This document shows positions 17,063 through 38,757 of a stretch of 48,334 nucleotides of DNA, piece after piece. Within the stretch, counting starts at the first letter, position 1. Every line of letters starts with the position of its first letter. Source of the DNA: Chloroflexi bacterium bin125 (GTDB lineage: Bacteria; Chloroflexota; Dehalococcoidia; Bin125). The translations under genes were made by a program, and so were the position numbers. Below the pieces are notes generated by a model, which was given only the letters and a program-made list of their open reading frames with translations, was not told the origin of the DNA and did no database searches. The stretch spans positions 1 to 48,334 of the forward strand of contig MPNM01000021.1 in NCBI GenBank assembly GCA_002239025.1, read 5' to 3'.

Positions 17063-18754
17063 CTAGCCGCTCCCTGAGAACGCGATTCCCGGTTGCCAGT
17101 CGTACACATCCCTCCAGCCAGGACCGAGGGGACCGTGCTGCGCGAGGAGGCGTTGATCTGAAACGAACAACGGCAACTCCACATCAGCACGTTCCATCTG
17201 CTCACGGGCGACGCGCCGGAAGTGGTCCGCCGCCAGTACATCTTCGAACACGACCAGCACCAGCGGGATCTCTCCGTGATCTTCGACCGGCCGCCTCGCG
17301 GCGTAGTAGCGCAGGTAGGGCGCAATCCGTTTCGCCATGGTCGAGGGCCGGATCGCGCGCCGCTCCCACTCGAGGAAGAACGGCTGGTCTTCGCCATTGC
17401 GGTGCAGCACACCGAACGCGTCGGGCTGGATCGAGCGCAAGCGCTCCTCGAAGCGAAAGTAGCGAGACGCGCGCTGCGGCTGATCGAGCTGAGTCACTCG
17501 GCATCTTTGCGCACGGGCTTGCTCGGCCAGGGCGGCGAGGAAGGCGTGCACGGCCTCGGTGTGAGTGAGGTTGCGCAGCAGTTGACGGGTGCGGCGGCCG
17601 CGCAGGTTGCGCCAGTGGAGCGGCCGCTCAGGATCGAGCAGGGTGGAGCTCCAGCGCTTGCGCGCAGCGCCGACCGAGGCGCGATCACGGCGAGCGAGCA
17701 GGGCCAGACCGCGGTCGCTCAAGACAAGTCGGCGTTGGCCTTCGATCCGGTGAGCCTTGAGCAGGTCTTGACGCTCCAGGCCGGCCATGAGCTGGGAGAC
17801 GCGGCGCCGGGCGACGCCGAGCAGCGAGGCCAGGTGATCCGCCCTGATCCATGACCAGTCGCCGACCAGGTCGAGCGTGCGTTTCTCGGTCGGCTTGAGC
17901 CGATCAGCTAACAACCAGTCTGTCGCTGGTCCGTGTCGTCCCACATCCAGCGATCGAGGCAAGATCACCCTCCTGGGAGCCGGTTCAACCGCCCACCACC
18001 CCTGGGGACGGACGTAGCCGAGAACCTCATCGAGGCTGAGCCCGACTGCCGCGGTCGGCCCACGCCAGACTTCCGAATCGCTGTTCGCCCAGGCGGCGTC
18101 GCGCTCCAGGGCGAAGAAACAGATGAACGGCGACCGCCTGAGCATTCGCCGGGCGTGCCGCAGCCGCACCTCATCCGGCGCAAGCACGAGCGCGCCCGAG
18201 TACGAAGGCCCCTCGCGCAGCCGGCGCAAGCGAATCGCGAACGCGGTGCGGTCGGCCGTGCGGCCCCAGCGGACGACGGCCAGGGTGCGTCCGTCGGGGA
18301 GCCCAATAGCCGCATCGGCCGGCTGCGAGCGGTACCAGCGCAGCCGCAGCGGACGCTCCAGATCGGCCAGGGCAGAGGCGAGCCGGTAGATCACCGCGAC
18401 CGAGTCCAGCCGCCCCAGCAGCAATCGCCGCCACCGTTGTGAGACCGGATGCTCGGCCAGGATCTGCTCACGGCTCCGTCCGCTGTTCAGCGCCAGCCGC
18501 TCGATCCCGTCGGCTGTCAGCAGGAACCGGCGGGTCGGGCTGATCAACTCTGAGGCGTGAGCGAGGCCCTCCACTAACCCGTCCCGCTGAAGACCGGCTA
18601 GGCGCTGGTAGACGGCGCGCTCTGACCAGCGCGAAAGCCGGGCCAGTTCGATCCGGTCGGCGAGCGGCAGTTCGGCCACCAGCCTGATCAGGTCGCGCTC
18701 AATCTCCCTCACCCGGCCCTCTCCCGGCTCTGTCGTCTGCCTCTGGCCTCCCAT
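17063..18754 (-). CDS. replication-relaxation family winged-helix protein
   Basis: A 563-residue protein. Residues about 15-75 form a winged helix (LIRLVAELPLADRIELARLSRWSERAVYQRLAGLQRDGLV). A second lies at about 290-355 (KRTLDLVGDWSWIRADHLASLLGVARRRVSQLMAGLERQDLL, then RRLVLSDRGLALLARRD). The C-terminal third has IQPDAFGVLHRNGEDQPFFLEWERRAIRP, the PDA...FFLExxR signature of the Replic_Relax family, which has a restriction-endonuclease-like fold and is found on plasmids and conjugative elements. Its role is probably in replication or mobilisation control. It is divergent from the gene at 18887, with palindromes between them. Having two winged-helix domains makes it longer than most members. 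Confidence 0.7.
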   Translation of the reverse strand: MGGQRQTTEPGEGRVREIERDLIRLVAELPLADRIELARLSRWSERAVYQRLAGLQRDGLVEGLAHASELISPTRRFLLTADGIERLALNSGRSREQILAEHPVSQRWRRLLLGRLDSVAVIYRLASALADLERPLRLRWYRSQPADAAIGLPDGRTLAVVRWGRTADRTAFAIRLRRLREGPSYSGALVLAPDEVRLRHARRMLRRSPFICFFALERDAAWANSDSEVWRGPTAAVGLSLDEVLGYVRPQGWWAVEPAPRRVILPRSLDVGRHGPATDWLLADRLKPTEKRTLDLVGDWSWIRADHLASLLGVARRRVSQLMAGLERQDLLKAHRIEGQRRLVLSDRGLALLARRDRASVGAARKRWSSTLLDPERPLHWRNLRGRRTRQLLRNLTHTEAVHAFLAALAEQARAQRCRVTQLDQPQRASRYFRFEERLRSIQPDAFGVLHRNGEDQPFFLEWERRAIRPSTMAKRIAPYLRYYAARRPVEDHGEIPLVLVVFEDVLAADHFRRVAREQMERADVELPLFVSDQRLLAQHGPLGPGWRDVYDWQPGIAFSGSG

Positions 18755-18819: not shown

Positions 18820-19015
18820 CTGTCCGGACAGGGATTGCAGCGCTTTGGAGATCGCACCCGTGAACAGGAATCAGGAGTAATGGGACATGGGACAGGAGGG
18901 GCGGACAGCCAGTGTTTTACCGGGTGAGGAGCGGACAATGGATGCACAGGTAACAGAGGATTCCGCGCCGGCTGGCTGCACGGAGATTGCAGTGTCCGGG
19001 GACTGTCCGGACAGT
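18820..19015. promoter_or_regulatory. paired CTGTCCGGACAG palindromes at divergent promoter
   Basis: CTGTCCGGACAG is a perfect palindrome at 18820-18831, in the 132-bp divergent intergenic region. A 14-bp perfect copy, ACTGTCCGGACAGT, is at 19002-19015, just inside the rightward gene. Half-sites (TGTCCGC, CCGGACAG) recur nearby. This is the pattern of an operator for an autoregulatory winged-helix or HTH protein, and either neighbour is a candidate binder. Confidence 0.5.
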
Positions 19016-19933
19016 GACCGGACAGGCGGGGAGGACGTGGTGGGGGGCGATAGCGGGACAGAGGGTGGGGCGGAAGCGGGGCGCTCGGGTGGGGAGGGGC
19101 ACCTGCGGGGCTTCCTACAGGACCTCCTGGAGCGCGAGGGCCGGGGCCGGACGGCGGAGCGGCTGGGAGTAAGCCAGCGGACCCTGCGGCGGGCCCTGGC
19201 CGCCCCCCAGTTGAGCCCGTTCATGGTCGAGGCCTTGCAGCGCGAACTGCAGGTGGATGCGGAGAAGCGGGCCGAGCCGGAGGAAGAGCAGCCCGTGAGT
19301 CTCAGCGAGCAGCTGCAACAGTTGGAGCGCCGGTTGGCTGAACTGGAGCACATCGCGGGTGATCAGCTGGAGGAGCTCTGGGCGGCGGGCGAGGACCTGC
19401 ACCAGATCCGCGCGGCGTACGCACCCCACCCGGAACGCGGGGCGGTTGGACACGGGCTGCGCGCATTTGACAGCCTGCTGACAGTCGAGCCCCTGCCCGA
19501 CGACGCGGAGGTGTACGGCGAGGCGCTGCCGGTCGTGGCCGAGTGGCGGCGGGCGTTGCGCGCATTGGGGGCGCCGCCCCATACCCTGGCCTGGCTCGAT
19601 TCGACCGAGCGACTGCTACGACTGGAGATCCAGCTGATCGACGACCGCCGGTTGACCCTGCCACCGGCCGATGTCCCCTGGGATGATGTGCGCCGGGAGA
19701 GCGAGCTGCTGCTGCGACAAGACCGACTGCGCAGACTGCGGATAGAGCGCCTGTGGACCGCGCCCCTGCATTGGTTGCTTCGGTTCCTGACCCTGGGGCG
19801 CTGGGGACGGGGCGTGAGCCTGGAACAACAGCTCCAGGGCGAGTTCGAGGCGCGGCGGGACGAGCTGCTCTCGGCGGGTGCGGGGCGTCGGGCCGGCCGA
19901 ATCGGGAACGGCCGCGGGCCACGTGGGGATTGA
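18887..19933 (+). CDS. HTH and coiled-coil protein, divergent partner of the replication-relaxation gene
   Basis: A 348-residue protein starting at ATG 18887 (AGGAG nine bases upstream). ATG 18938, with GAGGAG, is an equally good start. The N-terminus is low-complexity and acidic. Residues about 72-100 (LRGFLQDLLEREGRGRTAERLGVSQRTLRRALAAPQLS) contain a clear HTH (TAERLGVSQRTLRRAL). Residues 120-170 (SLSEQLQQLERRLAELEHIAGDQLEEL) form a coiled coil, followed by a helical region and a basic C-terminal tail. It is probably a DNA-binding regulator or partition-like factor. No enzyme motif was seen. The family was not recognised. Confidence 0.7.
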   Translation: MGQEGRTASVLPGEERTMDAQVTEDSAPAGCTEIAVSGDCPDSDRTGGEDVVGGDSGTEGGAEAGRSGGEGHLRGFLQDLLEREGRGRTAERLGVSQRTLRRALAAPQLSPFMVEALQRELQVDAEKRAEPEEEQPVSLSEQLQQLERRLAELEHIAGDQLEELWAAGEDLHQIRAAYAPHPERGAVGHGLRAFDSLLTVEPLPDDAEVYGEALPVVAEWRRALRALGAPPHTLAWLDSTERLLRLEIQLIDDRRLTLPPADVPWDDVRRESELLLRQDRLRRLRIERLWTAPLHWLLRFLTLGRWGRGVSLEQQLQGEFEARRDELLSAGAGRRAGRIGNGRGPRGD

Positions 19934-24485: not shown

Positions 24486-24740
24486 CTACCGGACCCTCCC
24501 CCTCACCCAGTACCACCAGCTGAGAGCCGCCGCGTCTCTCATGCCAGAACGGCAGCCCAGGGCACCAGACTCGCCGAGCTTTTCGCGCTTGATCCAGTCC
24601 TCGTCATCGATCACCCATACCAGCTCATCGCCCGAGTGCGGGACCTGAGCCTGGACTGACCGCCAGACCAGGATCGCGATCGTTGCGGCCACAAGCAAAC
24701 CCGCCGCGGCGATCCAATTCCACCGCTTCCGGTTGCCCAT
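24486..24740 (-). CDS. small membrane-anchored protein
   Basis: An 84-residue protein from ATG 24740 (MGNRKRWNWIAAAGLLVAATIAILVWRSVQAQ). Basic residues then one membrane span (residues 9-26) place the rest outside. That part (VPHSGDELVWVIDDEDWIKREKLGESGALGCRSGMRDAAALSWWYW) is small and acidic. The longer open frame to 25055 runs through iteron repeats and is rejected as N-terminal sequence. The ribosome-binding site is weak. No family was recognised. Confidence 0.5.
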   Translation of the reverse strand: MGNRKRWNWIAAAGLLVAATIAILVWRSVQAQVPHSGDELVWVIDDEDWIKREKLGESGALGCRSGMRDAAALSWWYWVRGRVR

Positions 24741-24920
24741 CTCGCTCTCTTCAATGCGCCTCCTCATGCACTTCGGTTCTCGCTCGATGCACTGGAGTGT
24801 GTTTGCAGAGGTGCTGCGGAGTAGCGGCTCAGGGGCGGCGACGCCGGCCTCGCCCCCGCTGAGCCATGGCCGAGATCGGCTGCGATGTGATGTCACGGGC
24901 GTGTACAGGAATCGAGGATC

Positions 24921-25057
24921 GATTGCACTGTGCAATCTGGCCTCGGCGACCAGCAAAAGCAGGGGCGAAGCGGGTTGAGTGCAGTGCAATCGACAAATGA
25001 TCTGTGTCCACTGCTGGTTCATGGTTGATTGCACTCGATTGCACTCCGATTGCACTC
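24921..25057. repeat. GATTGCACTC iteron cluster
   Basis: Three direct copies of GATTGCACTC start at 25027, 25037 and 25048, spaced 10 and 11 bp, about one helical turn. An inverted pair forms the perfect palindrome GATTGCACTGTGCAATC at 24921-24937. Another inverted copy (GTGCAATCGA with an extra GAGTGCA) lies at 24977-24993. Phased iterons are typical of replication-initiator or partition-protein binding sites. Confidence 0.75.
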
Positions 25058-25570
25058 GACTTCAATGGGTGACGCACCACGCGAGGAGGCTGAGCGAGTG
25101 ACGGCAGGCGGACAGGCGGACCACGGGAGCAAGCAGTACCCAGGACGACGGGCGAGGGCGGGGCGGCGGGGCTCCCCCTACAGGACCTCGCCCAGACGCA
25201 TGGCGGGTTGCGGACGGCGGAACTGCCTGATGACGACGTGAACAGCACGGACGACTTGCAAGACGACGATGGCGGCGACAAGGGGCCGACGACGAGTTGG
25301 CGCTGCTTTGACAGCTCGGGGAACTCAGGCAGGAGGACGCCTGCGCGAGGAGTTCGCACAGGCGGTCGGTCGGCACGAGGAGCGTCTGGCCCGGCTGGAG
25401 TAGGCCAGGGCAGGCCAAGACCAGGCTGCTTCGACCACGCCCCAACCCACCCCGCCACACCCCAGCTTCCATCCGCAGGTGGTCACGACGGAACCGGGGG
25501 TGGACGAGGAGCGGGTCTACCGGAGGCCATGCCGCTGGTTGCCGGGTGGCGGGAGGTCCGGGTCGATTGC
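25058..25570. other. about 510 bp without a supported gene
   Basis: The region lies between the iterons and the second CxxC gene. It includes GC-rich open frames (one continuing to 26456 on the minus strand), but none with protein-like composition or a ribosome-binding site. Confidence 0.5.
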
Positions 25571-25825
25571 TCAGCGGGCGACCGGTCGCGAGAGCAGCGC
25601 CAGCTGGGAAACGTGACAGGTCTCGCACCAGAACGACCAGCGCAGCACGCGCGGGTCGCCGTAGAACGGGACCACGCGCACCAATGCAACCTCGTGACCC
25701 GCATGTCCCCAGGCGGCCAGTTCGTTGTTCGCCCGCTCCGCGACCAGGGTGAGGTCGCTGGGCGCGTAGCTGTTCTGGGGTTCGACCAGCGCGAGCGCGA
25801 GCTGAACCTGCTGCGGGGTGATCAA
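25571..25825 (-). CDS. small CxxC protein, AWGHAGH family copy 2
   Basis: An 84-residue protein with a TTG start at 25825 supported by GGAGG about nine bases upstream. The N-terminal helix (ITPQQVQLALALVEPQNSYAPSDLTLVAERANNEL) precedes AAWGHAGHEVALVRVVPFYGDPRVLRWSFWCETCHVSQLALL. The WGHAGH and CxxC elements align with the gene at 24066-24269, though the N-termini differ. A possible one-zinc fold is suggested by these ligands. Four 11-bp TACATCGTCGA-type repeats begin 59 bp upstream and may control it. Confidence 0.7.
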   Translation of the reverse strand: MITPQQVQLALALVEPQNSYAPSDLTLVAERANNELAAWGHAGHEVALVRVVPFYGDPRVLRWSFWCETCHVSQLALLSRPVAR

Positions 25826-25883
25826 AACGACTGCCTCCGCTCGGCAGCGTATCGAGATGAGGCGGTCGAGAGTTGCGGCTGGC

Positions 25884-25924
25884 TACATCGTCGATACATC
25901 GTCGATACATCGTTGGTACATCGC
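25884..25924. repeat. 11-bp tandem repeat TACATCGTCGA
   Basis: Units start at 25884, 25895, 25906 (TACATCGTTGG) and a partial one at 25917, with an exact 11-bp period. They sit just upstream of the leftward gene starting at 25825 and just before the first structured repeat, a likely binding array for one protein. Confidence 0.75.
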
Positions 25925-25979
25925 AGCAAGCGATCAGAGCACGGCCTCCTTCATACCGTTGCGTACGTCGTTTCGGGGG

Positions 25980-26271
25980 CGTACTACTGAGGGTGGTTTC
26001 CGGCTTTTGCCAGTTCTTCTCGCCCAGAAAACTGGTGGGTTCGTCTCCAACCCGGGTCCGGCCAGAGGATTGAGCCTCGCTCTCCCGATGGTCCGGCTCA
26101 CCGAGAGACAAGCGCCCCCGCTGCGCGAACTGGTCAAGGGATTGAGCCTGGCTCTCCTGAGACTCGCTCGAAGTGCGGGACCGGTCTCCGGGTCGTCCCG
26201 ACGACTCGTTGACCGCAGAGTGGACGACTGACCGGACTGCCTCCACATGATGTGGCGATGCGCAGTCCGGT
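25980..26271. ncRNA. candidate structured RNA, copy 1
   Basis: About 290 nt, alignable with 26590-26913. Shared landmarks in order: GCGTACTA; a hairpin (CCAGTT-C-TTCT loop AGAA-AACTGG); GGGTTCGTCTCCAACCCG; a GCTCTCCC box at 26079; CCGCTGCG; a second GCTCTCC box at 26151; GTGCGGG; and a final hairpin ACCGGACTGC/GCAGTCCGGT (26231-26271) with inner CCACA/TGTGG. Paired positions of the first hairpin change in a compensatory way between copies. I cannot assign a known RNA family, and the transcribed strand is unknown. Confidence 0.45.
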
Positions 26272-26316
26272 CGCTTCGTGTCCAAACTGCCGCTGAGCAC
26301 CTGCCGATCCGAGCGC

Positions 26317-26336
26317 AATTGCACTCGATTGCACCC
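26317..26336. repeat. second iteron site, two copies
   Basis: AATTGCACTC at 26317-26326 and GATTGCACCC at 26327-26336 are adjacent, exactly 10 bp apart. They match the iterons at 24921-25057 and lie between the two structured repeats. Confidence 0.65.
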
Positions 26337-26589
26337 GGATCGCAGTGCTCCTCGTAGATCGCCAGGGACTATTGACCAATTCGCCACAGTCTTGACCAGC
26401 TCACTCGTGCAGCTCGGCAAGCCCCTCCATCGTGCGCTCTCACTAAGTCGCTGCACTGCCAGCGGGTTTTCCGGAAGTTACCCGGGCTGCTGGGATCCAG
26501 TCTGGCGACATCGGTGTCGCCTTTTGAGCATTAGTACGGCTGGAGCAACTGCTGCCTCGTCTCATGCGCTTGCAATCGCATCGGGCTGA

Positions 26590-26913
26590 GCGTACTAATG
26601 AAGATGGTCTTCAGGCTTTGCCAGCATTTCCATGCCTTGAAACGCTGGAGGGTTTGTCCCCGACCCGTGTCTGGCCCGTGGGATCAGAGGTTTGCTCTCC
26701 CCAGTGCCGGACGCAGTGTGGGAATAGCGCGCATCCGCTGCGTGCAGTGGTCACGGGATACGAGGTTTGCTCTCCCCTGACTGCTCGGAATGCGGGTCAC
26801 GCCTGAGCGATGCGCAATCAGCGCTTCGGCTTGGGAGGACACCAGCACCAGCGCCGGTATCGCGCTTGTTGCTCGTCATTCACCTCCGTGATCGGACTGC
26901 GTGGAGCGCAGCC
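26590..26913. ncRNA. candidate structured RNA, copy 2
   Basis: The diverged copy of 25980-26271. It has GCGTACTA; a hairpin CCAGC-A-TTTC loop GAAA-C-GCTGG; GGGTTTGTCCCCGACCCG; GCTCTCC boxes at 26694 and 26769 (75 apart; 72 apart in copy 1); CCGCTGCG; ATGCGGG; and a final CGGACTGC and GCAGCCCGG hairpin-like region (26893-26913). Base changes preserve pairing rather than any reading frame. It sits about 290 bp upstream of the first gene of the DNA-processing module. Confidence 0.45.
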
Positions 26914-27026
26914 CGGTCTACTCACGTCCGCGCCCGTCGTCCACAGCGGTCTTCCGGCCTGCTCATGACCACCGATCGGGCTCCAGCGTCCTAGATCGCA
27001 CTCCTACTCCGCGTGTCCGGCATCCC

Positions 27027-27136
27027 CGTATCGAGTACGGACCGGCCGACCACGCCCGGAGAGCGTTCTCGATCATCCACCCATTCAGACCATCAACCGC
27101 GACGAACCGCGCCCGGCCTACCCCGTACTCGATACG
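27027..27136. promoter_or_regulatory. 14-bp inverted repeat upstream of DNA-processing module
   Basis: CGTATCGAGTACGG (27027-27040) and its exact reverse complement CCGTACTCGATACG (27123-27136) are separated by 82 bp. The left arm with its neighbouring C is itself a hairpin (CCGTA/TACGG). The pair ends 70 bp before the first gene (27206). It could be an operator pair, a replication or transfer origin site, or a promoter-proximal looped site. Confidence 0.55.
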
Positions 27137-27205
27137 CCGGGCCAGGTCGGATCACCATCCACAAGGTCCCGCCCAAGCACATGGCTCAACTGAAAGGAGC
27201 TCAAG

Positions 27206-27754
27206 ATGAGGGACACGAACGAGACGAACGGAACAAGAACGAGAGGCCGCTACGTCGGTCCCACGGCCGCGCGGATCGCCGAACTGATCGCGCCCCGGCA
27301 GCGGGTGCGCTTTGAGCGCGGCTGGTTCTGGACGGCGGCTGTCTGCCACGAATCGGAACAGGACCTGCTGGCCTTCCGCCAGCGGCCCGACGGCGACGGG
27401 ATCGATGTCCGTTGCAAATCGGCCGGCTGCTCGCGTGAGCGGATCATCCGCCGGCTGGAGACGCTCGGCGGCGAGTCGATCTGGTCGGCGTACCGCGCTG
27501 AGGGCGCAACGGCCTCAGCTTCCCGGGATTCCGCGACCGAGGCCATGCTGACGTCGAACGACGCACGCGGGCGCTCCTGGCCGGTCGTCCTGGCGCCCTT
27601 CGCCATCCTCCTGCTGGCCGCGCCGCTGATCCTGGGATACGAGCTGCAGGTCGTGGCGCTGAACGCATGCGGCCTCGGCTGGGCCGGCTGGCTGGCGCGG
27701 CGGGTCTGGACCGGCCGCCTGGCCTCGGTCGCGCGTGCGGGGCGCCGCCGCTGA
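27206..27754 (+). CDS. zinc-finger-like and C-terminal membrane protein, first gene of module
   Basis: A 182-residue protein from ATG 27206 behind GAAAGGAG. Residues 15-80 (YVGPTAARIAELIAPRQRVRFERGWFWTAAVCHESEQDLLAFRQ, then IDVRCKSAGCSRERIIRRLETL) carry C-H and CxxxxC residues reminiscent of a primase-type CHC2 zinc finger, with a C47 plus H48 and C74/C79 pair, so metal binding is possible. Residues 120-145 (WPVVLAPFAILLLAAPLILGYELQVVAL) and a following hydrophobic stretch make one or two membrane segments. The combination of a DNA-type finger and a membrane tail is unusual. A strong hairpin follows the gene. Confidence 0.6.
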   Translation: MRDTNETNGTRTRGRYVGPTAARIAELIAPRQRVRFERGWFWTAAVCHESEQDLLAFRQRPDGDGIDVRCKSAGCSRERIIRRLETLGGESIWSAYRAEGATASASRDSATEAMLTSNDARGRSWPVVLAPFAILLLAAPLILGYELQVVALNACGLGWAGWLARRVWTGRLASVARAGRRR

Positions 27755-27781
27755 CCGTTCAAGCCCAGCAACGCACCACTC

Positions 27782-27807
27782 AAGGGCCGCCTTCCGGGGC
27801 GGCCCTT
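27782..27807 (+). terminator. intergenic hairpin
   Basis: A perfect 10-bp stem, AAGGGCCGCC/GGCGGCCCTT, with a 6-base loop, followed by CTTCGTTAAG rather than a T run. It could terminate or attenuate transcription between the first and second genes. Confidence 0.7.
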
Positions 27808-27850
27808 CTTCGTTAAGCCGCAGTCGCACGTCGACAGGAAAGGAGACCAC

Positions 27851-28300
27851 ATGACTGCAAACACCACCACCGCGAACGCTCCCCGGCCCACGCTGGAGGA
27901 ACTGGTCGACCGATTGATTGACGCCGTCTTCGGCCTGGATGAACCGGCGCAACCGGTGACATCCCCGGCCCGGGCGATTCACGAGGCGCGACGCCTCAGG
28001 CACACCGGTGAGCACGATGCAGCGCTCGGCGTCTTCGCCGCGCTCGACTTGAGCGGCTCGACCGACGGCGAGCGCCGCTGGGCCTACGCCGAGTTCCTCG
28101 ACCTGGCCCGGCGAACGTTCAGCGAGGAGCAAACACAGGTCTACAGACCTGGCACGGGGCGAGCCGCTGTCCTCGCACCTCGAGACGAAGGGACGCTCGA
28201 AGTCCGAGCTGTGCTGGGCATGCGTTGGCGACCAGGCAAGATCGTTTCGCAGCGCAGCCTCAGGGGGCTCAAGCCGCTAGCCAGGGACGGTGCCTCTTGA
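27851..28300 (+). CDS. hypothetical protein upstream of primase
   Basis: A 149-residue protein from ATG 27851 behind GAAAGGAGACCAC. It is a helical N-terminus (TLEELVDRLIDAVFGLDEPAQ) followed by ARAIHEARRLRHTGEHDAALGVFAALDLSGSTDGERRWAYAEFLDLARRTF, a TPR-like pair of helices, and a basic tail ending at the TGA that overlaps the primase TTG start (TTGA at 28297-28300). The first 100 residues look genuine. The last 50 are less protein-like. Translational coupling suggests a primase partner. No named family. Confidence 0.6.
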   Translation: MTANTTTANAPRPTLEELVDRLIDAVFGLDEPAQPVTSPARAIHEARRLRHTGEHDAALGVFAALDLSGSTDGERRWAYAEFLDLARRTFSEEQTQVYRPGTGRAAVLAPRDEGTLEVRAVLGMRWRPGKIVSQRSLRGLKPLARDGAS

Positions 28301-29358
28301 CGTTGACCAGCACTGTCGACATTCCCGCGCTCAAGGCGCGCCACCCCCTGGGCGACGTGGTCGAGGCGGCCGGCGTCAAGCTGCGCGGACGCGGACGGGT
28401 CCGCCAGGGAGTCTGCCCGTTCCACGAAGAGACGCAAGGCAGCTTCACGGTCTACGCCGACACCCAGCGCTTCTACTGCTTCGGCTGCGGCCTGGGCGGC
28501 GACATGCTCGACTTCGTCCAGCGCACGGACGGGGTCGACCTGCCCGAGGCGATTCGCCGCCTGGAGCGCGCGCCGCCTCTGGGGCCCCAGGCTGCTGCTC
28601 CGGCGACCGCCCAGCCCGCCAGTTCAGCACACCGCCAAGAACCGCCCCCAACAGTCAGGGATCCGGCGCTCTTGACCGCGGCGATGCGCTGCTACCAGCG
28701 CCAGTTACAGCTCAGCCAGGCCGCCCAGGCGTACCTCGCCGGACGCGGCATCGTCCCGCAGGCCGCGCAGCAGCTGGGGCTGGGCTACGCCAGCGGGCAT
28801 GGGCTGCGCGATTGGCTCAGGCAGGCCGGCTTCGACGACCGGCGGATCCTCTCCAGCGGACTCGTTCGGCAGCAGCGGGAGCGCTTCGGCGGCATGGTCG
28901 TCGTCCCCGAGCTGATTGGGGGGCGCGTGCGCTGGCTCGCCGGTCGGTCGATCTGGCCCGAGGTCAGCCCCAGGTTCCAGGCCCTGCCCGGCCCCAAGCC
29001 GGTGCTCGGACTCTCGCGGTTGGACCAACAGGCTCCCTGGATCGTCGTCGCCGAGGGGCTGTTCGACTGGCTCCTACTGACGGCCTGGGGCCTGCCCGCC
29101 TGCGCCGCGCTCGGCGCCCAGGGGATGGACAAGCTGGCTTCCTCCCTACAGGGACGACCTCGCGTCTTCCTCGCCTTCGACGCCGATGAGGCCGGATGCG
29201 CAGCGGCAAACGAGCTAGCCGGACTGCTCGGCGCTCACCGCGCCGCGATCGTGAACCTGCCTCAGGGCGTCTCCGACGTGGGCGAACTGGGCGCTCGCCC
29301 GGACGGCCGCGCCGTCTTCCTCGACCAGCTCAGGCGAGCGGCGCTGGCCGCTCGCTAG
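28297..29358 (+). CDS. DnaG-type DNA primase (CHC2 zinc finger plus TOPRIM)
   Basis: A 353-residue protein; start at TTG 28297, overlapping the previous stop, behind GGGACGG. The CHC2-type zinc finger has C40-P-F-H43 and C61-F-G-C64, with SFTVYADTQRFYCFGCGLGGDMLDFVQ. A central part (AAQAYLAGRGIVPQAAQQLGLGY) is the start of the catalytic core. The TOPRIM domain shows VAEGLFDWLLL (E253) and LAFDADEAG (D295, D297). It is shorter than chromosomal DnaG (about 600 residues) and lacks a helicase-binding C-terminal domain, as plasmid and phage primases do. Its place before Rad52/SSB genes suggests element replication. Confidence 0.88.
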   Translation: MTLTSTVDIPALKARHPLGDVVEAAGVKLRGRGRVRQGVCPFHEETQGSFTVYADTQRFYCFGCGLGGDMLDFVQRTDGVDLPEAIRRLERAPPLGPQAAAPATAQPASSAHRQEPPPTVRDPALLTAAMRCYQRQLQLSQAAQAYLAGRGIVPQAAQQLGLGYASGHGLRDWLRQAGFDDRRILSSGLVRQQRERFGGMVVVPELIGGRVRWLAGRSIWPEVSPRFQALPGPKPVLGLSRLDQQAPWIVVAEGLFDWLLLTAWGLPACAALGAQGMDKLASSLQGRPRVFLAFDADEAGCAAANELAGLLGAHRAAIVNLPQGVSDVGELGARPDGRAVFLDQLRRAALAAR

Positions 29359-29531
29359 CGACGCCGCTCCCAGCGGGACATTTCCTGCTGCCACCCAACA
29401 CCCCCGTCAAACAACGAAACGGAGGGCCCGCCTCTGGCCTCTAACCGACCGTGCCTGCGGCGCGGCGCACGGTTGCCGTCACCGGCAACCGCACCCAACA
29501 ACCACGAACACCACTGAGTAAGGAGCAGGAA
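29359..29531. other. intergenic region before annealase gene
   Basis: This is a 173-bp gap after the primase. It contains a GCGGCGCGG/ACGGTTGCCG palindromic segment around 29455-29490 and ends in AAGGAGCAGGAA before the ATG at 29532. Confidence 0.4.
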
Positions 29532-30446
29532 ATGAGCAGCAGGAACGGCAATGGAACCGCGACGGCGGTTCGCAGGAATGGCAACGGAAACAGCCTGCCC
29601 CCGGCCCGAACGGGGGGCAACGGAGCGCGCCCGCACTCCGCCCCGCAGACGGTCTCCGCGCCGACGGCGCCGGAGGCCCTGCACTGGGACGCGCTGGCAC
29701 CGCGTGTGACCGAAGCCCTGGCGCAACCGCTCGACCCCCAGCTGGTCTCGCGGCGCAAGGGCCGCGGCGGGCGCAAGTTCGACTACATCGAGGGCCACAC
29801 GGCGATCGACCAGGCCAACCGGATCTTCGGCTTCGGCGGCTGGGGCTACGAGCTGGTCGGCGATGTGACCTTGCGCGAGATCGAGTCCACCGACTCGCGC
29901 AGCGGCGAAATCACGCGCTCGGCCGCCTACTCGGCGACTGTCACGGTCAGCGTGCCGGGCGCGCCCTCGCGCACCGACGTCGGCTTCCAGGCGGTCACGG
30001 ACGAGTCGGCCGAGGGCCACGAAACGGCGTTCAAGGGCGCCGTCACCGACGCGCTCAAGCGCGCCCTGCGCAGCTTCGGCGACCGCTTCGGCAACGGCCT
30101 CTATGGCGATCCGCCGACGAGCAGCCGCAGCAGCCGACCTCCTGGACCGGCCCCAGAGTCGCGGCGGCAGCCGCAACCTGAACGCCGCAGCGAGCCGCAA
30201 CCGCGACGCCGGGTCGTTCAGCCGACGCCCGAATCAGCCGGGGTCGACAAGCGCGACGCAGCGAACTTGCGCACCCAGCTGATCGAGTTGAGCGCGCAGC
30301 AGGGCTTCTCTGAGGAGCAGGTCCGCGCCGCCGTCGAGGCCAAGACCGGACGCGCATTGGACGAACTCGGCCCAGACGAGCTCAACCCGCTGATCGCCTC
30401 CGCCGCCGAGAAGCTCGAACAGCGGCTGCGGTCCGAACAAGGCTGA
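29532..30446 (+). CDS. Rad52/22-type single-strand annealing protein
   Basis: A 304-residue protein from ATG 29532 behind AAGGAG. Residues about 50-200 match the Rad52 fold: DPQLVSRRKGRGGRKFDYIEGHTAIDQANRIFGFGGWGYELVGDVTLREIE, then TVTVSVPGAPSRTDVGFQAVTDESAEGHETAFKGAVTDALKRALRSFGDRFGNGLYGD. This is the usual FGYDYIEGxxxIxxANRIFGxxGWxxE and EtAxKGAvTDALKRALRxFGxxFGNxLY pattern. The C-terminal 100 residues form a Pro/Arg linker and an alpha-helical tail. The N-terminal 45 residues are low-complexity and contain the 30-bp palindromic insert (SLPPARTGGN). It anneals complementary single strands in homologous recombination, usually paired with an exonuclease; the next gene encodes a candidate. Confidence 0.9.
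   Translation: MSSRNGNGTATAVRRNGNGNSLPPARTGGNGARPHSAPQTVSAPTAPEALHWDALAPRVTEALAQPLDPQLVSRRKGRGGRKFDYIEGHTAIDQANRIFGFGGWGYELVGDVTLREIESTDSRSGEITRSAAYSATVTVSVPGAPSRTDVGFQAVTDESAEGHETAFKGAVTDALKRALRSFGDRFGNGLYGDPPTSSRSSRPPGPAPESRRQPQPERRSEPQPRRRVVQPTPESAGVDKRDAANLRTQLIELSAQQGFSEEQVRAAVEAKTGRALDELGPDELNPLIASAAEKLEQRLRSEQG
29592..29621 (+). repeat. 30-bp palindromic element, copy B (in annealase gene)
   Basis: Starts AGCCTGCCCCCGGCCCG and ends CGGGGGGCAAC. In the reading frame it adds ten codons, S-L-P-P-A-R-T-G-G-N, in a low-complexity N-terminus. It differs from copy A mainly in the loop. Confidence 0.8.
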
Positions 30447-30564
30447 GCCAGGCGAGCCAGCCAACCAACTGGAGCGCGGCCGCCACTCAGGTGCGCGCCT
30501 GCCCCGGGCACCGACCCGGGGGCCGCGCTCTTCCTCCATACCGGTATCCCGAAAGGAACCAATC

Positions 30565-31629
30565 ATGACCCTCAGCCATCCAACTCAGACCGGCAGCCGT
30601 TCGGCCACCTACGACCGACCGGCGGCGCGGTTCACCGACGACGAGCAGCTCGAAGTCCGCGCCTCGGCCCTGGGCCAATGCCGCCGCGCGCTCTGGTACG
30701 CGGCCACCGAACAGGACGTGACCAACCCAATGTCGGACGAGACCAAGACCGTGCTCGAGGCCGGCCAGGCGCTCGAAGCGGTCGTTGTGCGCGCCATGCA
30801 GCGGCGCTTCTGGACGGTCACCCCGGCCGACCCCGACGCGCCGCTGCAAGTCGAAGTCGAGGCGGGACCGGGTCTGACCGTGACCGGGCATCCCGACGCC
30901 ACCGGCGCGATCGAGCTGTTCGGCGACGAGTCGGTGATCGAGGTCAAGACGCGCGGACCCGAAGCGTTCAAGCGCTGGCAGACCCTGGGCGCCGAACGCA
31001 GCCATCCCGACTCAGTCGCCCAGGCGGCCTGCTACTCGCTCGGTCTCTACGGCGAGTGCCGCGACGTGGTCATCGCCACGCTCGACACCGGCGCGCGCAG
31101 CTGGGACTACGAGGTGATCCCGGCCGAGCGGGTGGAGCGAGCCTGGGACCGCGCCTGCGAGCGGCTCGCCCCGCTCGCCGAGCACTACGAGTTGCACGGC
31201 CCGAATCCGGAGGCGCTGCCAGAACGAGACTTCACCGCATCGGACTGGCAGTGCCAACGCTGCCCCTACCTCAACGTCTGCCAACCCGGCGAGGCGGCAG
31301 AGGCGGTCGATGAGGCCGACGCCGAACCGACCGAGCCGGTCTCGGACGAGGTCGCCCACGACGCGTTGCTCAAGTACGAGCAAATCCAGCAGCAGCTGAA
31401 GTCGCTCGACGCCGACAAGCGCGGAGCGCTCAAGACCCTCCAGCACTGGCTCCAACAGAAAGGAGAAGCCAAAGCCAGGCTGGAGGGCTCGGCCAAGACC
31501 CGCACGGTGGGCATGGTCACGAGCCGCCGCTACGCGGTCGACCACAAGCGGCTCAATGCGCTGCTCGAACCAGAACAGCGCGCCGAGATTGTGACCGAGC
31601 AAACCTCGGAGTACCTCAGAGTCAGCTAG
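30565..31629 (+). CDS. PD-(D/E)xK exonuclease with Cas4/AddB-type Fe-S cysteines
   Basis: A 354-residue protein from ATG 30565 behind GAAAGGAACC. Nuclease residues: GHPDA (H109-D111), VIEVKTR (E126, K128) and QAACY (Q153, Y157), as in RecB/Cas4. C39 (LGQC) plus C230, C233 and C239 (CQRCPYLNVC, CxxCx5C) match the four iron-sulfur ligands of Cas4 and AddB. The C-terminal 100 residues (KYEQIQQQLKSLDADKRGALKTLQHWLQQ and following) form a coiled helical extension not found in Cas4. In this operon it is likely the exonuclease partner of the Rad52-type annealing protein. It is not in the cas operon and is not proposed as Cas4. Confidence 0.85.
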   Translation: MTLSHPTQTGSRSATYDRPAARFTDDEQLEVRASALGQCRRALWYAATEQDVTNPMSDETKTVLEAGQALEAVVVRAMQRRFWTVTPADPDAPLQVEVEAGPGLTVTGHPDATGAIELFGDESVIEVKTRGPEAFKRWQTLGAERSHPDSVAQAACYSLGLYGECRDVVIATLDTGARSWDYEVIPAERVERAWDRACERLAPLAEHYELHGPNPEALPERDFTASDWQCQRCPYLNVCQPGEAAEAVDEADAEPTEPVSDEVAHDALLKYEQIQQQLKSLDADKRGALKTLQHWLQQKGEAKARLEGSAKTRTVGMVTSRRYAVDHKRLNALLEPEQRAEIVTEQTSEYLRVS

Positions 31630-31660
31630 ACGACCTCACTCTCAAGAGGTCACAACCGAG

Positions 31661-31689
31661 GGCCGGTCTCCAACCATCGGAGGCCGGCC
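31661..31689 (+). terminator. intergenic hairpin
   Basis: An 11-bp stem GGCCGGTCTCC/GGAGGCCGGCC (one G-T pair) with a 7-base loop, followed by CGGCTTCGTTT. It precedes the first SSB gene. Confidence 0.7.
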
Positions 31690-31760
31690 CGGCTTCGTTT
31701 CACCCAAACAGGCGCGGAAAGCCCGCGCCGACACATCGCGCTTTGAAAGGAACACGACGA

Positions 31761-32126
31761 ATGTCACGCACGATCAACCGAATCGAACTGTTGGGCCGGG
31801 TCGGGACCGACCCCGAACTGCGCCGGACCAAGCAGGGAACCGCCGTCTGCCGCCTGCGCCTGGCGACCGACCGCCGCAACGGGAACGGTGACGCCCAGAC
31901 CGACTGGCACAACCTCGTGGTCTGGGGCAAGACCGCCGAAGCGGTCGCCGAGTACGTCCGCAAGGGCGACCGGATCTACGTCTCCGGCCGGCTCGGCTAC
32001 GACAGCTGGGAGGACCAGGACGGCCAGCGCCGTCGGACGACCGAGGTTCACGCGAACGAAGTCGTCTTCCTCGACGCCGCGGGCAGCCGACACTCGGACC
32101 ACGGAACGGAGGATGCACCCTTCTAA
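31761..32126 (+). CDS. ssb: single-stranded DNA-binding protein, copy 1
   Basis: A 121-residue protein from ATG 31761 behind GAAAGGA. The OB fold is complete: MSRTINRIELLGRVGTDPELRRTKQGTAVCRLRLATDRR, then TDWHNLVVWGKTAEAVAEYVRKGDRIYVSGRLGYDSWEDQDGQRRRTTEVHANEVVFLD. The C-terminal tail is short and ends EDAPF, resembling the usual DDIPF protein-binding tip. It is shorter than a cellular SSB (about 160-180), as on plasmids. It is followed by a paralogue, SSB2, almost identical through the OB fold. Confidence 0.93.
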   Translation: MSRTINRIELLGRVGTDPELRRTKQGTAVCRLRLATDRRNGNGDAQTDWHNLVVWGKTAEAVAEYVRKGDRIYVSGRLGYDSWEDQDGQRRRTTEVHANEVVFLDAAGSRHSDHGTEDAPF

Positions 32127-32176
32127 CGGACCCCAAACCACTAAGTCACGACGCCCGCCAGACGGGTGCTCAACAG

Positions 32177-32205
32177 GGTCGCCTTCCTCTGAACGGAAGG
32201 CGGCC
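32177..32205 (+). terminator. intergenic hairpin
   Basis: An 11-bp stem GGTCGCCTTCC/GGAAGGCGGCC (one G-T pair) with a 7-base loop, followed by TTGCTCG, between the two SSB genes. Confidence 0.65.
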
Positions 32206-32272
32206 TTGCTCGTATCTCCAGACGGTGCGGCCTGACTGCACCAACAAACGCTCTTTGAAAGGAGCACGACGA

Positions 32273-32671
32273 ATGTCACGCACGATCAACCGAATCGAAC
32301 TGCTGGGCCGGGTCGGGACCGACCCCGAGCTGCGCCAGACCAAGCAGGGAACCGCCGTCTGCCGCCTCAGGCTGGCGACCGACCGCCGCAACGGGTCGGG
32401 CGACGCCCAGACCAACTGGCACAACCTCGTGGTCTGGGGCAAGACCGCCGAGGCCGTCGCCGAGTACGTCCGCAAGGGCGACCGGATCTACGTCTCGGGC
32501 CGGCTCGGCTACGACAGCTGGGAGGACCAGGACGGCCAGCGCCGCCAGACGACCGAGGTTCACGCGAACGAGGTCGTCTTCCTCGACTCTCGCAACAGCA
32601 GTAGCCAGCCCCCGACCCGAGCGGGGGGCAACGGCCGCCGCAACAACCATGACGGGGACCAGCCCTTCTAG
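32273..32671 (+). CDS. ssb: single-stranded DNA-binding protein, copy 2
   Basis: A 132-residue protein from ATG 32273, behind the same leader (CTTTGAAAGGAGCACGACGA) as copy 1. OB-fold residues 1-105 differ from copy 1 at only a few positions (for example LRQTK for LRRTK, GSGDAQTN for GNGDAQTD). The tail is different: it contains the 30-bp palindromic insert (SQPPTRAGGN) and ends GDQPF. The near-identity of leader plus OB fold shows a recent tandem duplication, while the tails have diverged. Separate roles in recombination and replication, or mixed tetramers, are possible. Confidence 0.93.
   Translation: MSRTINRIELLGRVGTDPELRQTKQGTAVCRLRLATDRRNGSGDAQTNWHNLVVWGKTAEAVAEYVRKGDRIYVSGRLGYDSWEDQDGQRRQTTEVHANEVVFLDSRNSSSQPPTRAGGNGRRNNHDGDQPF
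32603..32632 (+). repeat. 30-bp palindromic element, copy C (in SSB2 tail)
   Basis: Starts AGCCAGCCCCCGACCCGAG and ends GGGGGGCAAC. In frame it adds S-Q-P-P-T-R-A-G-G-N to the SSB2 tail. The first SSB copy lacks it, giving a direct insertion/empty-site comparison. Confidence 0.8.
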
Positions 32672-32713
32672 TCCCTCATCACGCCATTTGACGCCTCTCC
32701 AGAGGCGCATCCC

Positions 32714-32748
32714 GGGGCCGCTCTCCGCATTGGTGGGAGAGCGGCCCC
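32714..32748 (+). terminator. intergenic hairpin
   Basis: A perfect 13-bp stem GGGGCCGCTCTCC/GGAGAGCGGCCCC with a 9-base loop, followed by GCTTCGTGCTC, between SSB2 and the RadC-like gene. Confidence 0.75.
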
Positions 32749-32780
32749 GCTTCGTGCTCACCACCAGAAAGGAACTAGAC

Positions 32781-33299
32781 GTGACCACTCTGACCGAATC
32801 CATTCCCGCAACCGACGAGAGGCAGGCGCTGCTCGACGCCCTGCGCCAGAACCTCAACCTCCTGGGCGAACTCGCGATCCGCTACGAGGTCGAGACCAAG
32901 CCCGAGCGACCCCTCGACATGCCCACCATCTACCGGCCCGAGACCGTCGTCGACCTGCTCTCGGACGAGATGTCCCGGCTGGCCCAGGAACAGGTCCGCG
33001 TACTGCTCCTGGACCGCAAGAACCGCGTCGTCGGCCAACGCACGATCTACCAGGGCAACGGCTATGCCGCGCTGGTGCGCCCGGCCGAGGTCTTCCGCCC
33101 GGCGGTGATCGAGGCCGTGCCGCACATCGTCGTGGTTCACAACCACCCCTCCGGCGACCCGGAACCGAGCCGCGAGGACATCCAGCTCACCAAAGACCTG
33201 GTTGAGGTCGGGAACCTGCTCGGGATCGAGCTGCTCGACCACGTCGTGATTGGCTCCGACGGCTGGGTCTCGCTCAAAGGCCAGGGCCTGATCGACTGA
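32781..33299 (+). CDS. RadC-like JAMM/MPN domain protein
   Basis: A 172-residue protein from GTG 32781 behind GAAAGGA. The JAMM metal site is intact: H120-N-H122-P-S-G-D-P-E-P-S130-x2-D133, as in HxHx7Sx2D, preceded by VRVLLLDRKNRVVGQRTIYQGN and EVFRPAVIEAVPHIVVVHNHPSG. It lacks the N-terminal HhH domain of chromosomal RadC, like the forms found on plasmids, phages and ICEs (YeeS/YkfG type). The molecular role is unsettled; the family is usually linked to element DNA metabolism. Confidence 0.88.
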   Translation: MTTLTESIPATDERQALLDALRQNLNLLGELAIRYEVETKPERPLDMPTIYRPETVVDLLSDEMSRLAQEQVRVLLLDRKNRVVGQRTIYQGNGYAALVRPAEVFRPAVIEAVPHIVVVHNHPSGDPEPSREDIQLTKDLVEVGNLLGIELLDHVVIGSDGWVSLKGQGLID

Positions 33300-33338
33300 C
33301 TCCCAACCCCGCTTCGGATTCATTGGAAAGGACGAGCG

Positions 33339-33989: not shown

Positions 33990-34177
33990 GCCACCGCTAT
34001 GTGACCGTCACGGTCGAGACCCGAGCGGGCGAGGACGACATCGCCGGCGAAGAGATCACCGCGATCTACAACTTCGACCTCGAAACGGACGCCGAGCAGA
34101 TCGAGGAGGGCGTCCACGAGGACATCCACGACCACCTGCTCAACCTGCTTGAGCAGTACCGAGAGGAGCACCCATGA
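33986..34177 (+). CDS. small acidic protein 1
   Basis: A 63-residue protein (MSHRYVTVTVETRAGEDDIAGEEITAIYNFDLETDAEQIEEGVHEDIHDHLLNLLEQYREEHP). It is rich in Asp/Glu, and the C-terminal half is likely one amphipathic helix. ATG 33986 overlaps the upstream stop, and its own TGA overlaps the next start (34174). No known domain. The acidity could mimic DNA or neutralise a basic partner, but that is inference. Confidence 0.6.
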   Translation: MSHRYVTVTVETRAGEDDIAGEEITAIYNFDLETDAEQIEEGVHEDIHDHLLNLLEQYREEHP

Positions 34178-35378: not shown

Positions 35379-35472
35379 CGGGACCGAACGAACCCAACCT
35401 CACGACCCCTGCGCAGCCGGGCGCGACGCGCACCAGCACCTACACCGCCCACACGAGACAAGGAGACCCACC

Positions 35473-35649: not shown

Positions 35650-35676
35650 CTGAACGAGCTTCCCACGAACCAAGCG

Positions 35677-35707
35677 AGCGAGCGAGGGATAACGGCCCTC
35701 GCTCGCT
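35677..35707 (+). terminator. intergenic hairpin
   Basis: A perfect 12-bp stem AGCGAGCGAGGG/CCCTCGCTCGCT with a 7-base loop, followed by CTAGTC. Confidence 0.7.
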
Positions 35708-35731
35708 CTAGTCAGACAGGGAGTGACTGAC

Positions 35732-36149: not shown

Positions 36150-36165
36150 ACCAACACAACCGGCT

Positions 36166-36188: not shown

Positions 36189-36208
36189 CGCTAGAACGGA
36201 ACCCGACC

Positions 36209-36396: not shown

Positions 36397-38757
36397 GTGA
36401 ACCTCTCAGAGTTCATCGACACCTACCGCGAGGCGATCACCAAGCGGATCGTCCACAGCTACCCACCCCGCTACCGTCCGGCCGCGGACGACCGCCCGAT
36501 GCCCCGACTCAAGCGCCGGCCGATGGGCGCCCAGGAGACCGTGATCCGCGGCGCCGCGCAGAGCCTGTCCGAGCAGCGCGGCACGACCGTCGTCGGCGAG
36601 ATGGGCGTGGGCAAGACGTTCATCGCCATCGCCGCCGCGCAGCTGGCCGGCTTCCGGCGCGTGCTCGTACTCTGCCCGCCCCACCTGGTCGGCAAGTGGA
36701 AACGCGAGATCGAGGACACGATCCCGCTGGTCCGCACCGGGATCGCCGACTCGATCACCGACCTGGAGCAGTTGCGCCGCCAGGAAGGCTCCGGCCCCCA
36801 GTACGTGGTCATGTCGCACTCGCGAGCCAAGCTCGGTCACCGATTTCGTCCCGCCTACTGGACCCGCCGGCTCAAGGATGAGGACGGTAACCCCGTCCGC
36901 GACGAAGAGACCGGCGAGTTCATCATGACCCCGGCTTGCCCCGACTGCACCGCGCAGATCGTGGACGCGGAAGGCGTCCCCGTCCCGCACAAGCAGCTGG
37001 ACAAGAAGCGTCACCAGTGTCCCAAGTGCGGGACGCCCCTGTGGACGGCGGAGGCGCGGCCGGCGCAGACCGTAACGACCGACTACAACGCCGGTCTGAT
37101 GGCGCGCCGCAGGCCCGGACAAGGTCCGCGCAAGTACCCCCTGGCCGACTACGTCAAGCAGCACATGCGCGGCTACTTCGACCTCTTGATCGTGGACGAG
37201 GTGCATGAGCACAAGGGTCGCGGCTCCGCGCAGGGCGTCTCGGCCGGCATCCTGGCCGACGCCTGCGGCAAGTCGCTGGCGCTCTCGGGAACGCTCATGG
37301 GCGGCTACGCCTCGACGCTCTTCCACCTGCTCTACCGGTTCTCGCCGGAGATCCGCTCCGAGTTCGGACGCTCCGACGAGCACAAGTGGGTCGAGCGCTA
37401 CGGCTTCCTCGAGCAGCGCGTGCGCCACGACCGCGACGATGACCCGACCGAGGACGGCTCCATCTCGCGGCGGCGGAACTACCGCAAGCAGGTCAAGGAG
37501 CGGCCGGGCATGGCGCCGGCGGCGCTGTTCCACATCATCGGCCACTCGCTCTTCCTCAGGCTGGCCGATGTCGCTTCGGGCCTGCCCGCCTACGAGGAGC
37601 AGATCCAGGTCGCGAGCATGGACACGGAGGAGGGCCTGCACGGAGTCTCCCAGGCCTCCGCCTACCGGATCCTCGCCACCGACCTCAAGCGGGCCCTGCT
37701 GCAGGCGATCGAACGCGGCTCGGCGCGGCTGCTCTCGACCTACCTGCAGGCGCTGCTGGCCTATCCCGAGGGCTGCACCAGGGGCGAGTCGGTGTTCGAT
37801 CCCGACACGGGCGACCTGATCGTCCAACTGCCGCCGCTCGACGCCGAGCGCGTCTACCCCAAGGAGCAGCAGCTGATCGACCTGGTCGCGCAGGAGCGCC
37901 TGGCCGGACGGCGGGTGCTGGTCTATGCCACCCATACCGGCACGCGCGACATCACCGGCCGCCTGGAGTCGCTGCTCACGCGGCACGGGTTCAAGACGGC
38001 GGTGATGAAAGCCGACCGGGTGGAGCCGAAGCAGCGAGAGGCCTGGGTCGCCAAGCGGGTCAAGGAAGGGATCGATGTCCTCATCTGCCACCCCAGGCTG
38101 GTCCAGACCGGGCTCGACCTGATCGCCTTTGCGACGATCTGCTGGTACGAGACCGACTACTCGGTCTACACCATGCGCCAGGCCTCGCGCCGCAGCTGGC
38201 GAATTGGCCAGACCCAACCGGTCAAGGTCGTGTTCATGGCCTACCGCAACACGCTGCAGGCCGACGCGCTCAAACTGGTCGCGCAGAAGCTGCAGAGTTC
38301 GCTCGCGGTCGAGGGCGACCTGCCCGAGGACGGGCTGGCCGCCTACGGCGACACCGGTGACGACCTGATGATGGCGCTGGCGCGCAAGCTGATCTCGGGC
38401 GAGACCGACTCCGAGCCGGTCGAGGACATCTTCCGCGAAGCGCAGCAGGTCGCCGCAGACGCCGAAGCGCTGCTGGTCGATGATGGATGGGAGCGGCTGG
38501 AGCCACATCAGGACGAGGCCGAGCTCGCGTCGCGCGCTCCTGCCGAGTGCTCAGTGGCCATCGAACTCGTTCCCTGCGGCGGGCATCACGGGTTACCGGA
38601 GACGCAGCAGGAGTTGTTCAGCTGGGCCGAGTTCCTGGCCGACGAGCCGGAGCAGCCGAAACCTCGCGGTCGCAACCTGCGACCCTCGGGTCCCTCGCTG
38701 TTCGATTGGGCGCTGGAACGGGAGCAGGAAGCCGGACTGGTCGCCGCCGGAGGCTGA
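36397..38757 (+). CDS. SNF2-type helicase with inserted zinc ribbon
   Basis: A 786-residue protein; start at GTG 36397, in frame and directly after the small gene. Walker A is GEMGVGKT (67-74), with CPPHLVGKWKREI as motif Ia and VDEVH (266-270) as motif II. Between them, residues 181-211 carry CPDC and CPKC, a zinc ribbon. LALSGTLMGG is motif III. VLICHPRLVQTGLDL and RQASRRSWRIGQTQPVKV are motifs V and VI, the latter typical of SNF2 proteins. The last 130 residues end LFSWAEFLADEPEQPKPRGRNLRPSGPSLFDWALE. It probably remodels DNA-protein complexes during element replication or transfer. A strong terminator follows. Confidence 0.88.
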   Translation: MNLSEFIDTYREAITKRIVHSYPPRYRPAADDRPMPRLKRRPMGAQETVIRGAAQSLSEQRGTTVVGEMGVGKTFIAIAAAQLAGFRRVLVLCPPHLVGKWKREIEDTIPLVRTGIADSITDLEQLRRQEGSGPQYVVMSHSRAKLGHRFRPAYWTRRLKDEDGNPVRDEETGEFIMTPACPDCTAQIVDAEGVPVPHKQLDKKRHQCPKCGTPLWTAEARPAQTVTTDYNAGLMARRRPGQGPRKYPLADYVKQHMRGYFDLLIVDEVHEHKGRGSAQGVSAGILADACGKSLALSGTLMGGYASTLFHLLYRFSPEIRSEFGRSDEHKWVERYGFLEQRVRHDRDDDPTEDGSISRRRNYRKQVKERPGMAPAALFHIIGHSLFLRLADVASGLPAYEEQIQVASMDTEEGLHGVSQASAYRILATDLKRALLQAIERGSARLLSTYLQALLAYPEGCTRGESVFDPDTGDLIVQLPPLDAERVYPKEQQLIDLVAQERLAGRRVLVYATHTGTRDITGRLESLLTRHGFKTAVMKADRVEPKQREAWVAKRVKEGIDVLICHPRLVQTGLDLIAFATICWYETDYSVYTMRQASRRSWRIGQTQPVKVVFMAYRNTLQADALKLVAQKLQSSLAVEGDLPEDGLAAYGDTGDDLMMALARKLISGETDSEPVEDIFREAQQVAADAEALLVDDGWERLEPHQDEAELASRAPAECSVAIELVPCGGHHGLPETQQELFSWAEFLADEPEQPKPRGRNLRPSGPSLFDWALEREQEAGLVAAGG

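Follow-up and report, generated by a model that had tools for sequence, protein, structure and literature searches.

The window analysed here, a stretch of 48,334 nucleotides from a contig of Chloroflexi bacterium bin125 (GenBank MPNM01000021.1), carries two copies of a structured RNA core on its plus strand (copy 1, 25986..26178; copy 2, 26597..26795), which lie ahead of a series of DNA-processing genes on the same strand. The first two of these genes encode c1 (27206..27754, 182 aa), a protein with no Pfam or NCBIfam match, and c3 (27851..28300, 149 aa), for which no Pfam match was found. They are followed by genes for a CHC2 zinc-finger/Toprim primase (28297..29358; PF01807, 2.2e-20), a Rad52-type annealing protein (29532..30446; PF04098, 2.7e-29), a PD-(D/E)XK nuclease-like protein (30565..31629; PF12705), two tandem SSB-like proteins with near-identical N-termini (31761-32671; relatives have one to three), a RadC-like protein (32733..33299; PF04002, 9.3e-38) and, as the last gene of the module, a large helicase (36397..38757; PF00271, PF04851). 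Upstream of the RNA, also on the plus strand, lies the gene of a conserved partner, a helix-turn-helix protein of 331 aa that we call c6 (18938..19933), and divergent from it a gene encoding a Replic_Relax relaxase (17063..18754, minus strand; PF13814, 2.2e-9). A small conserved open reading frame, c10 (25571..25825, minus strand, 84 aa), is divergent to the RNA and was seen in the genus of the window. A further short frame (24486-25022, minus strand) clusters with c16, a family from the type IV secretion system (T4SS) side of related elements; the full T4SS operon is absent from the window, and the element it contains is probably partial. Beside the element lies a type I-E CRISPR-Cas system (1462-5200 and 5232-14285) with genes for Cas3, Cse1, Cse2, Cas7e, Cas5e, Cas6e, Cas1e and likely Cas2, and about 60 repeats at a spacing of 61 nt.

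Copies of this RNA sit on integrative-conjugative elements (ICEs) of Chloroflexota. The genes for a T4SS pilin, VirB4/TraC-like and TraD-like ATPases and a Replic_Relax relaxase point in one direction on these elements, and in the opposite direction follow the RNA, c1, c3, the primase, Rad52, PD-(D/E)XK, SSB and RadC proteins, a methyltransferase and a helicase. The sequence-only reading had placed the structure upstream of a replication/recombination module and taken it to be borne by a mobile element, and the neighbourhood bears out both points.

The two copies noted from the sequence alone are real: they align by blastn (70% over 209 nt, E 7e-15) as well as with MAFFT, and contain all the landmarks that had been listed, i.e., the GCGTACTA box, a CCAG/CTGG hairpin (with TTCT/AGAA in one copy and TTTC/GAAA in the other), GGGTT..ACCC, two GCTCTCC boxes (72 nt apart in one copy and 75 nt in the other), CCGCTGCG and a closing hairpin with CGGACTGC. 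The extent of about 300 nt first ascribed to them needs to be revised, as only some 190-200 nt are well conserved; in both copies this core is followed by a variable stretch and then by a terminal hairpin, P8. The GCGTACTA box is present, yet seems to belong to a promoter instead of the RNA. Within it lies the -10 hexamer of a promoter predicted to comprise, in copy 1 (25959..25987), a -35 element TTGCGT (25959-25964), a 17-nt spacer and a -10 element TACTAC (25982-25987), and in copy 2 (26570..26598), TTGCAA (26570-26575), an equal spacer and TACTAA (26593-26598); transcripts therefore probably start near 25994 and 26604. A strict scan for the sigma-70 consensus found no promoter. In most copies of the family, a box resembling TTGCCA, TTGTCA or TTCCC is found about 27 nt before the core, together with a -10-like hexamer at the core edge, and host rRNA promoters in the genus of the window have comparable -10 boxes (TACTAT, TACGAT, TAAGAT). 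Many copies also display, some 60 nt ahead of the core, a motif like GCAAGCGATC, represented in window copy 1 by AGCAAGCGATCA (25925..25936, plus strand), a candidate regulator-binding site, and degenerate in window copy 2.

The adjacent copies did not arise by local tandem duplication, as each has nearer relatives elsewhere in the genome than its neighbour (79-90% identity for copy 1, 82-84% for copy 2). In a related locus, L033 (13983-8273, minus strand), the order is type 1 RNA, c6, type 2 RNA and operon, the two RNAs being 4.5 kb apart; compared with this layout, the direct adjacency of type 1 and type 2 RNAs in the window points to recombination among related elements. Direct repeats of an iteron-like kind, about 10-11 nt in length (TCGATTGCACT / ATTGCACTCG), are found upstream of copy 1 (24919-25064) and just after it (26318-26337), as well as after related copies in three loci (L003, L033, L045); they may serve as binding sites for a protein or as an origin.

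The case for a conserved structure is based on covariation and not on energy, because single copies fold only slightly better than their shuffled versions (z -1.9 and -1.8). In an alignment of 44 distinct rows, which are related to each other and were fitted to the model, 39 of the 59 proposed pairs show changes on both sides, versus 20.9 in column shuffles, and standard pairs occupy 89.6% of the cells, versus 81.0% in the shuffles and 37-50% when partners are slid; the observed values were reached by no shuffle. Two results are independent of the fitting to the model: both pseudoknots covary even though they are absent from the covariance model, and the helices P2, P3 and PK1 covary already in a plain MAFFT alignment. 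Selection on structure, proposed earlier from compensatory changes between two copies, is thus upheld by such changes across the family. The proposed lack of a shared reading frame is confirmed too, since merely 5% of the indel runs are multiples of three and no frame is open in all copies, which rules out remnants of a coding sequence; the frames called by a simple gene finder over copy 1 lack conservation in frame.

In the predicted fold, the core comprises P2, P3, a branched domain with two GAGC/GCTCTCC hairpins, P5 and two pseudoknots, all given here in plus-strand coordinates of copy 1. P2 (CCAGTTCTT/AGAAAACTGG, 26010..26035; helix 2) is paired in 94% of cells, with two-sided changes in four of nine pairs, and the adjacent P3 (GGGTT-CGTCTCC-AACCC, 26037..26053; helix 3) in 99%, with such changes in all five pairs. 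The P3 loop GTCTC (26043-26047) pairs with GAGAC (26105-26109) to form the pseudoknot PK1 (26043..26109; helix 4, 92% paired, four of five pairs two-sided). Within the span of PK1 lies the first of the twinned small hairpins, P4b (26072..26085), with a nearly invariant GAG/CTC, and further downstream the second one, P6b (26144..26157; helix 12, 95% paired). Between these is P5 (GCGC-CCCCGCT-GCGC, 26112..26126; helix 8, 97% paired), whose outer pair occurs as GC, CG, GU, UA and AU, and whose loop CCGC (26118-26121) forms with GCGG (26175-26178) the pseudoknot PK2 (26118..26178; helix 9, 89% paired), where CG is replaced by UA and AU. An additional helix, P1 (CUGGAG/UUUCAG), is doubtful because the predicted transcript start falls inside it and because it is rich in G-U pairs. 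A boxA-like NusB site was considered for the GCTCTCC boxes and discarded: nothing like it is seen near the 16S gene in the host rRNA leaders.

G-U pairs are more frequent than A-C mismatches, by 215 to 71 overall and by 148 to 70 (about 2:1) when P1 is left out, an excess that favours, though not strictly, an RNA read from the plus strand over single-stranded plus-strand DNA. It thereby bears on the idea that the structure acts as single-stranded DNA, as a transfer origin of the ICE or as a replication origin. The position on an ICE beside a module for primase, SSB and Rad52 would suit such a role, as would the iteron-like ATTGCACTCG repeats found nearby in the genus. Yet, the relaxase and T4SS genes lie beyond c6 (in the window, about 7 kb separate the structure from the relaxase gene, with c6 in between), promoter-like boxes precede the structure, and the conserved fold with its pseudoknots, like the G-U excess, is that of an RNA, so that we consider a DNA origin extremely improbable. 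Of the three roles that the sequence-only reading had offered, an element-borne regulatory RNA is thus the one favoured, whereas a replication RNA and a transfer origin are disfavoured by the divergent relaxase and T4SS genes beyond c6 and by the promoter-like boxes before the structure.

A covariance model, proposed earlier as the way to find homologues, was built from a first alignment of 23 copies (R1) and complemented by a second one (R2); the search found matches in Chloroflexota, the host group, and copies on mobile elements. Copy 1 scores 185.3 bits with R1 and 171.1 with R2, copy 2 159.6 and 150.6 bits. Eight copies were found by DNA search in the source genome, two on the contig of the window, three on another contig (C8) and one on each of three more (C41, C19, C33). 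The family is present in 11 of the 14 other genomes of the genus and, according to R1, in 30 of 393 genomes and 12 of 226 genera of the class Dehalococcoidia; weaker members were detected with R2 in other Chloroflexota. Among the retrieved loci there are 61 covariance-model matches at E<=0.001, the last few of which, below about 30 bits, are likely false positives (L131-L133 and one in L108). The named carrier records are metagenome-assembled genomes titled Dehalococcoidia bacterium, Chloroflexi bacterium or Chloroflexota bacterium. Chance occurrences of the DNA pattern in other phyla gave no covariance-model match, and neither c6 nor the RNA was found in a plasmid collection. As stated earlier, no named RNA family matches: with Rfam release 15, nothing in the window exceeds the gathering threshold, and up to E = 10 the best sub-threshold matches, two in number, are at chance level. 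The existence of a structured RNA family is therefore nearly certain. Neither Pfam, NCBIfam nor Rfam has a family covering the RNA or c6, no such RNA was found in the open-access literature, and both appear to be undescribed.

The gene encoding c6 lies between the T4SS/relaxase side and the RNA, on the same strand as the RNA and upstream of it, in 56 of the 61 copies with enough sequence. Its stop codon is less than 200 nt from the core in 33 copies, and it is absent within reach in the other five; in the genus of the window, other genes intervene and the distance reaches up to kilobases. The pair of c6 and RNA is kept in elements with other downstream genes and in other families of Chloroflexota, and in one locus (L123, 1151-4306) a single contig of genome G281 has two such modules one after the other. 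The AlphaFold model of c6 (pLDDT 86) displays an XRE/Fis-like helix-turn-helix at the N-terminus, then a long coiled coil, and a bundle of helices at the C-terminus. Sequence and fold searches recognised only the helix-turn-helix and the coiled coil; Foldseek retrieved nothing at E <= 0.001, and the top VIA-align rows are middling helical bundles. Because it can be kilobases from the RNA in the genus and is absent near five of 61 copies, c6 may act as a conventional promoter regulator. The tight linkage, this domain composition and the upstream GCAAGCGATC motif, which suits a protein site, would also be consistent with autoregulation, with c6 repressing or activating the operon by binding to the RNA or to promoter DNA and leaving elongation unaffected. 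A DNA site alone would however need no RNA of 200 nt with a double pseudoknot, and the enrichment of terminators described below would be left without explanation; we therefore regard this as very unlikely.

Downstream of the RNA, c1, c3 or the primase gene is found in 47 of the 61 copies, and the promoter-like boxes (the promoter being predicted), core and operon lie on one strand in that order. The RNA is thus likely the leader of the operon. It might also be imagined as a free small RNA, about 300 nt in length with its end at P8, that acts in trans by regulating genes of the element or the host, or is bound by c6. The promoter-like boxes of its own, the free-standing structured domain closed by a terminal hairpin and the presence of up to eight copies per genome would fit such an RNA, but its location ahead of the operon genes and on their strand, kept in most copies, would be needless for action in trans, and makes this scenario distinctly unlikely in our eyes.

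P8 (26230..26272 with a tail to 26281 in copy 1; 26890..26918 in copy 2; both plus strand) is a terminator-like hairpin followed in copy 1 by GCTTCGTGT, and is conserved in the genus with a similar T-tail. Being a terminator-like end of the RNA itself, it fits a free RNA as well as an attenuator or riboswitch-like leader, in which the core would sense a ligand or c6 and decide whether transcription stops at P8, the later hairpins tuning single genes. Several features would suit such a switch: the conservation of P8 with its T-rich tail in the genus, the T-tailed hairpins of other kinds that follow the core in some distant copies, the twinned hairpins, which look like a binding site, and the GGGAC strand, for which the P3 loop and GUUUC at the 5' end are alternative partners. 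The changes in the GGGAC-GUUUC pairing are one-sided only, though, and those in the pseudoknot PK1 two-sided; a hairpin with at least four T follows the core in just 22 of 57 copies; and attenuation does not account for the repeated occurrence of directional terminator-like hairpins along the operon. We thus see an attenuator as possible, if unlikely.

Hairpins of at least 9 bp are present in 140 of 227 operon gaps (62%), compared to 20 of 95 co-directional host gaps (21%) and six of 35 gaps in the T4SS operons that the elements carry themselves (17%), and under a stricter rule that requires hairpin and T-tail, the proportions are 40%, 4% and 0%, respectively; the host control is 400 kb of a related genome, and true gene ends are represented by a limited control of 14 convergent host gaps. 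More T follows the stem than A precedes it (p = 6e-12, a value that, like the other p-values, is too small as the loci are related), so that the signal points along the transcript. It recurs at fixed gaps, a GC-rich hairpin plus T-rich tail being found between c1 and c3 in 26 of 29 cases, nuclease and SSB in 21 of 26, SSB and SSB in 13 of 16 and SSB and RadC in 16 of 23, and terminator-like hairpins occur in distant family members too. In the window, they are seen on the plus strand between c1 and c3 (27784..27814; GGGCCGCCTTCCGGGGCGGCCC followed by TTCTTCGTT), between the nuclease and the first SSB gene (31660..31699) and between the two SSB-like genes (32174..32217). Many of the T-tails are short or interrupted (e.g., TTCTTCGTT).

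We propose that the RNA is a cis-acting leader that, perhaps together with c6, makes RNA polymerase antiterminate, a reading based on the combined analyses to which we give roughly even chances. Transcribed from its own promoter, the RNA would make up the beginning of a long leader for the DNA-processing operon, fold behind the polymerase while nascent and, perhaps with c6, render it resistant to termination. The modified polymerase would then pass the presumed terminators between the genes of the operon, strong hairpins followed by T, at which transcripts begun elsewhere would halt, and the operon would thereby be kept silent while the element is integrated. Our observations comprise the RNA family with its fold and position, its linkage to c6 and the enrichment of directional terminator-like hairpins; transcription, termination at the hairpins, read-through and any role of c6 we infer. 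The wider proposal, that a two-part RNA-protein module composed of the double-pseudoknot leader and c6 drives terminator-studded DNA-processing operons by antitermination across the ICEs of Chloroflexota, silent when integrated, is more tentative, and we hold it as somewhat less probable than not. With about 60 covarying copies across Chloroflexota, a linked protein and predicted target hairpins, the relation between structure and function could be tested by natural variation. Even if the mechanism were another, this would be a structured RNA of Rfam class with two supported pseudoknots. The kind of mechanism, if it holds, is already known; the RNA family and c6 appear to be new.

Other structured RNAs of similar length are known from bacterial mobile elements, such as HEARO, the omega RNA of IscB. 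The present RNA differs from these in that no Rfam match was found, no nuclease gene of that kind was seen next to it, and the partner is a helix-turn-helix protein. RNA-based antiterminators are few in the literature covered (put, EAR, conAn2 and canT) and come from Proteobacteria and Bacillota; it is by the precedents of conAn, canT and put that we propose a similar way of working. The put RNA of phage HK022, two bulged stem-loops that act alone by binding the polymerase (PMC9378689), resembles the present RNA in being a nascent RNA just downstream of a promoter, but it is about 70 nt long, versus a core of about 190 nt with two pseudoknots. Membership in that family was dismissed on length and fold, and a search of HK022 25000-40751 with R2 up to E = 10 gave nothing. 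EAR, in the account of PMC8955417 the structured antiterminating leader of Bacillus exopolysaccharide operons, belongs to a host operon of Bacilli, and up to E = 10 no Rfam match to the window is found except for the two at chance level. canT of Tn916, compared by description, requires no element protein and is placed such that it acts on genes only after excision. A close parallel, as described in PMC8955417, is conAn2, an RNA that together with the protein ConAn1 heads the terminator-rich conjugation operon of pLS20-type conjugative plasmids. Going by that description, the present RNA differs in phylum, in heading a DNA-processing operon and not a T4SS operon, and in its partner, c6, which precedes the RNA and its promoter and consists of a helix-turn-helix and a coiled coil. 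In both systems the RNA precedes the genes of a long operon on a conjugative element, which also encodes a protein partner; the conAn operon has many internal intrinsic terminators, the present one terminator-like hairpins. If our proposal is true, this would suggest that conjugative elements of distant phyla have independently reached RNA leaders as a means to remain silent until needed.
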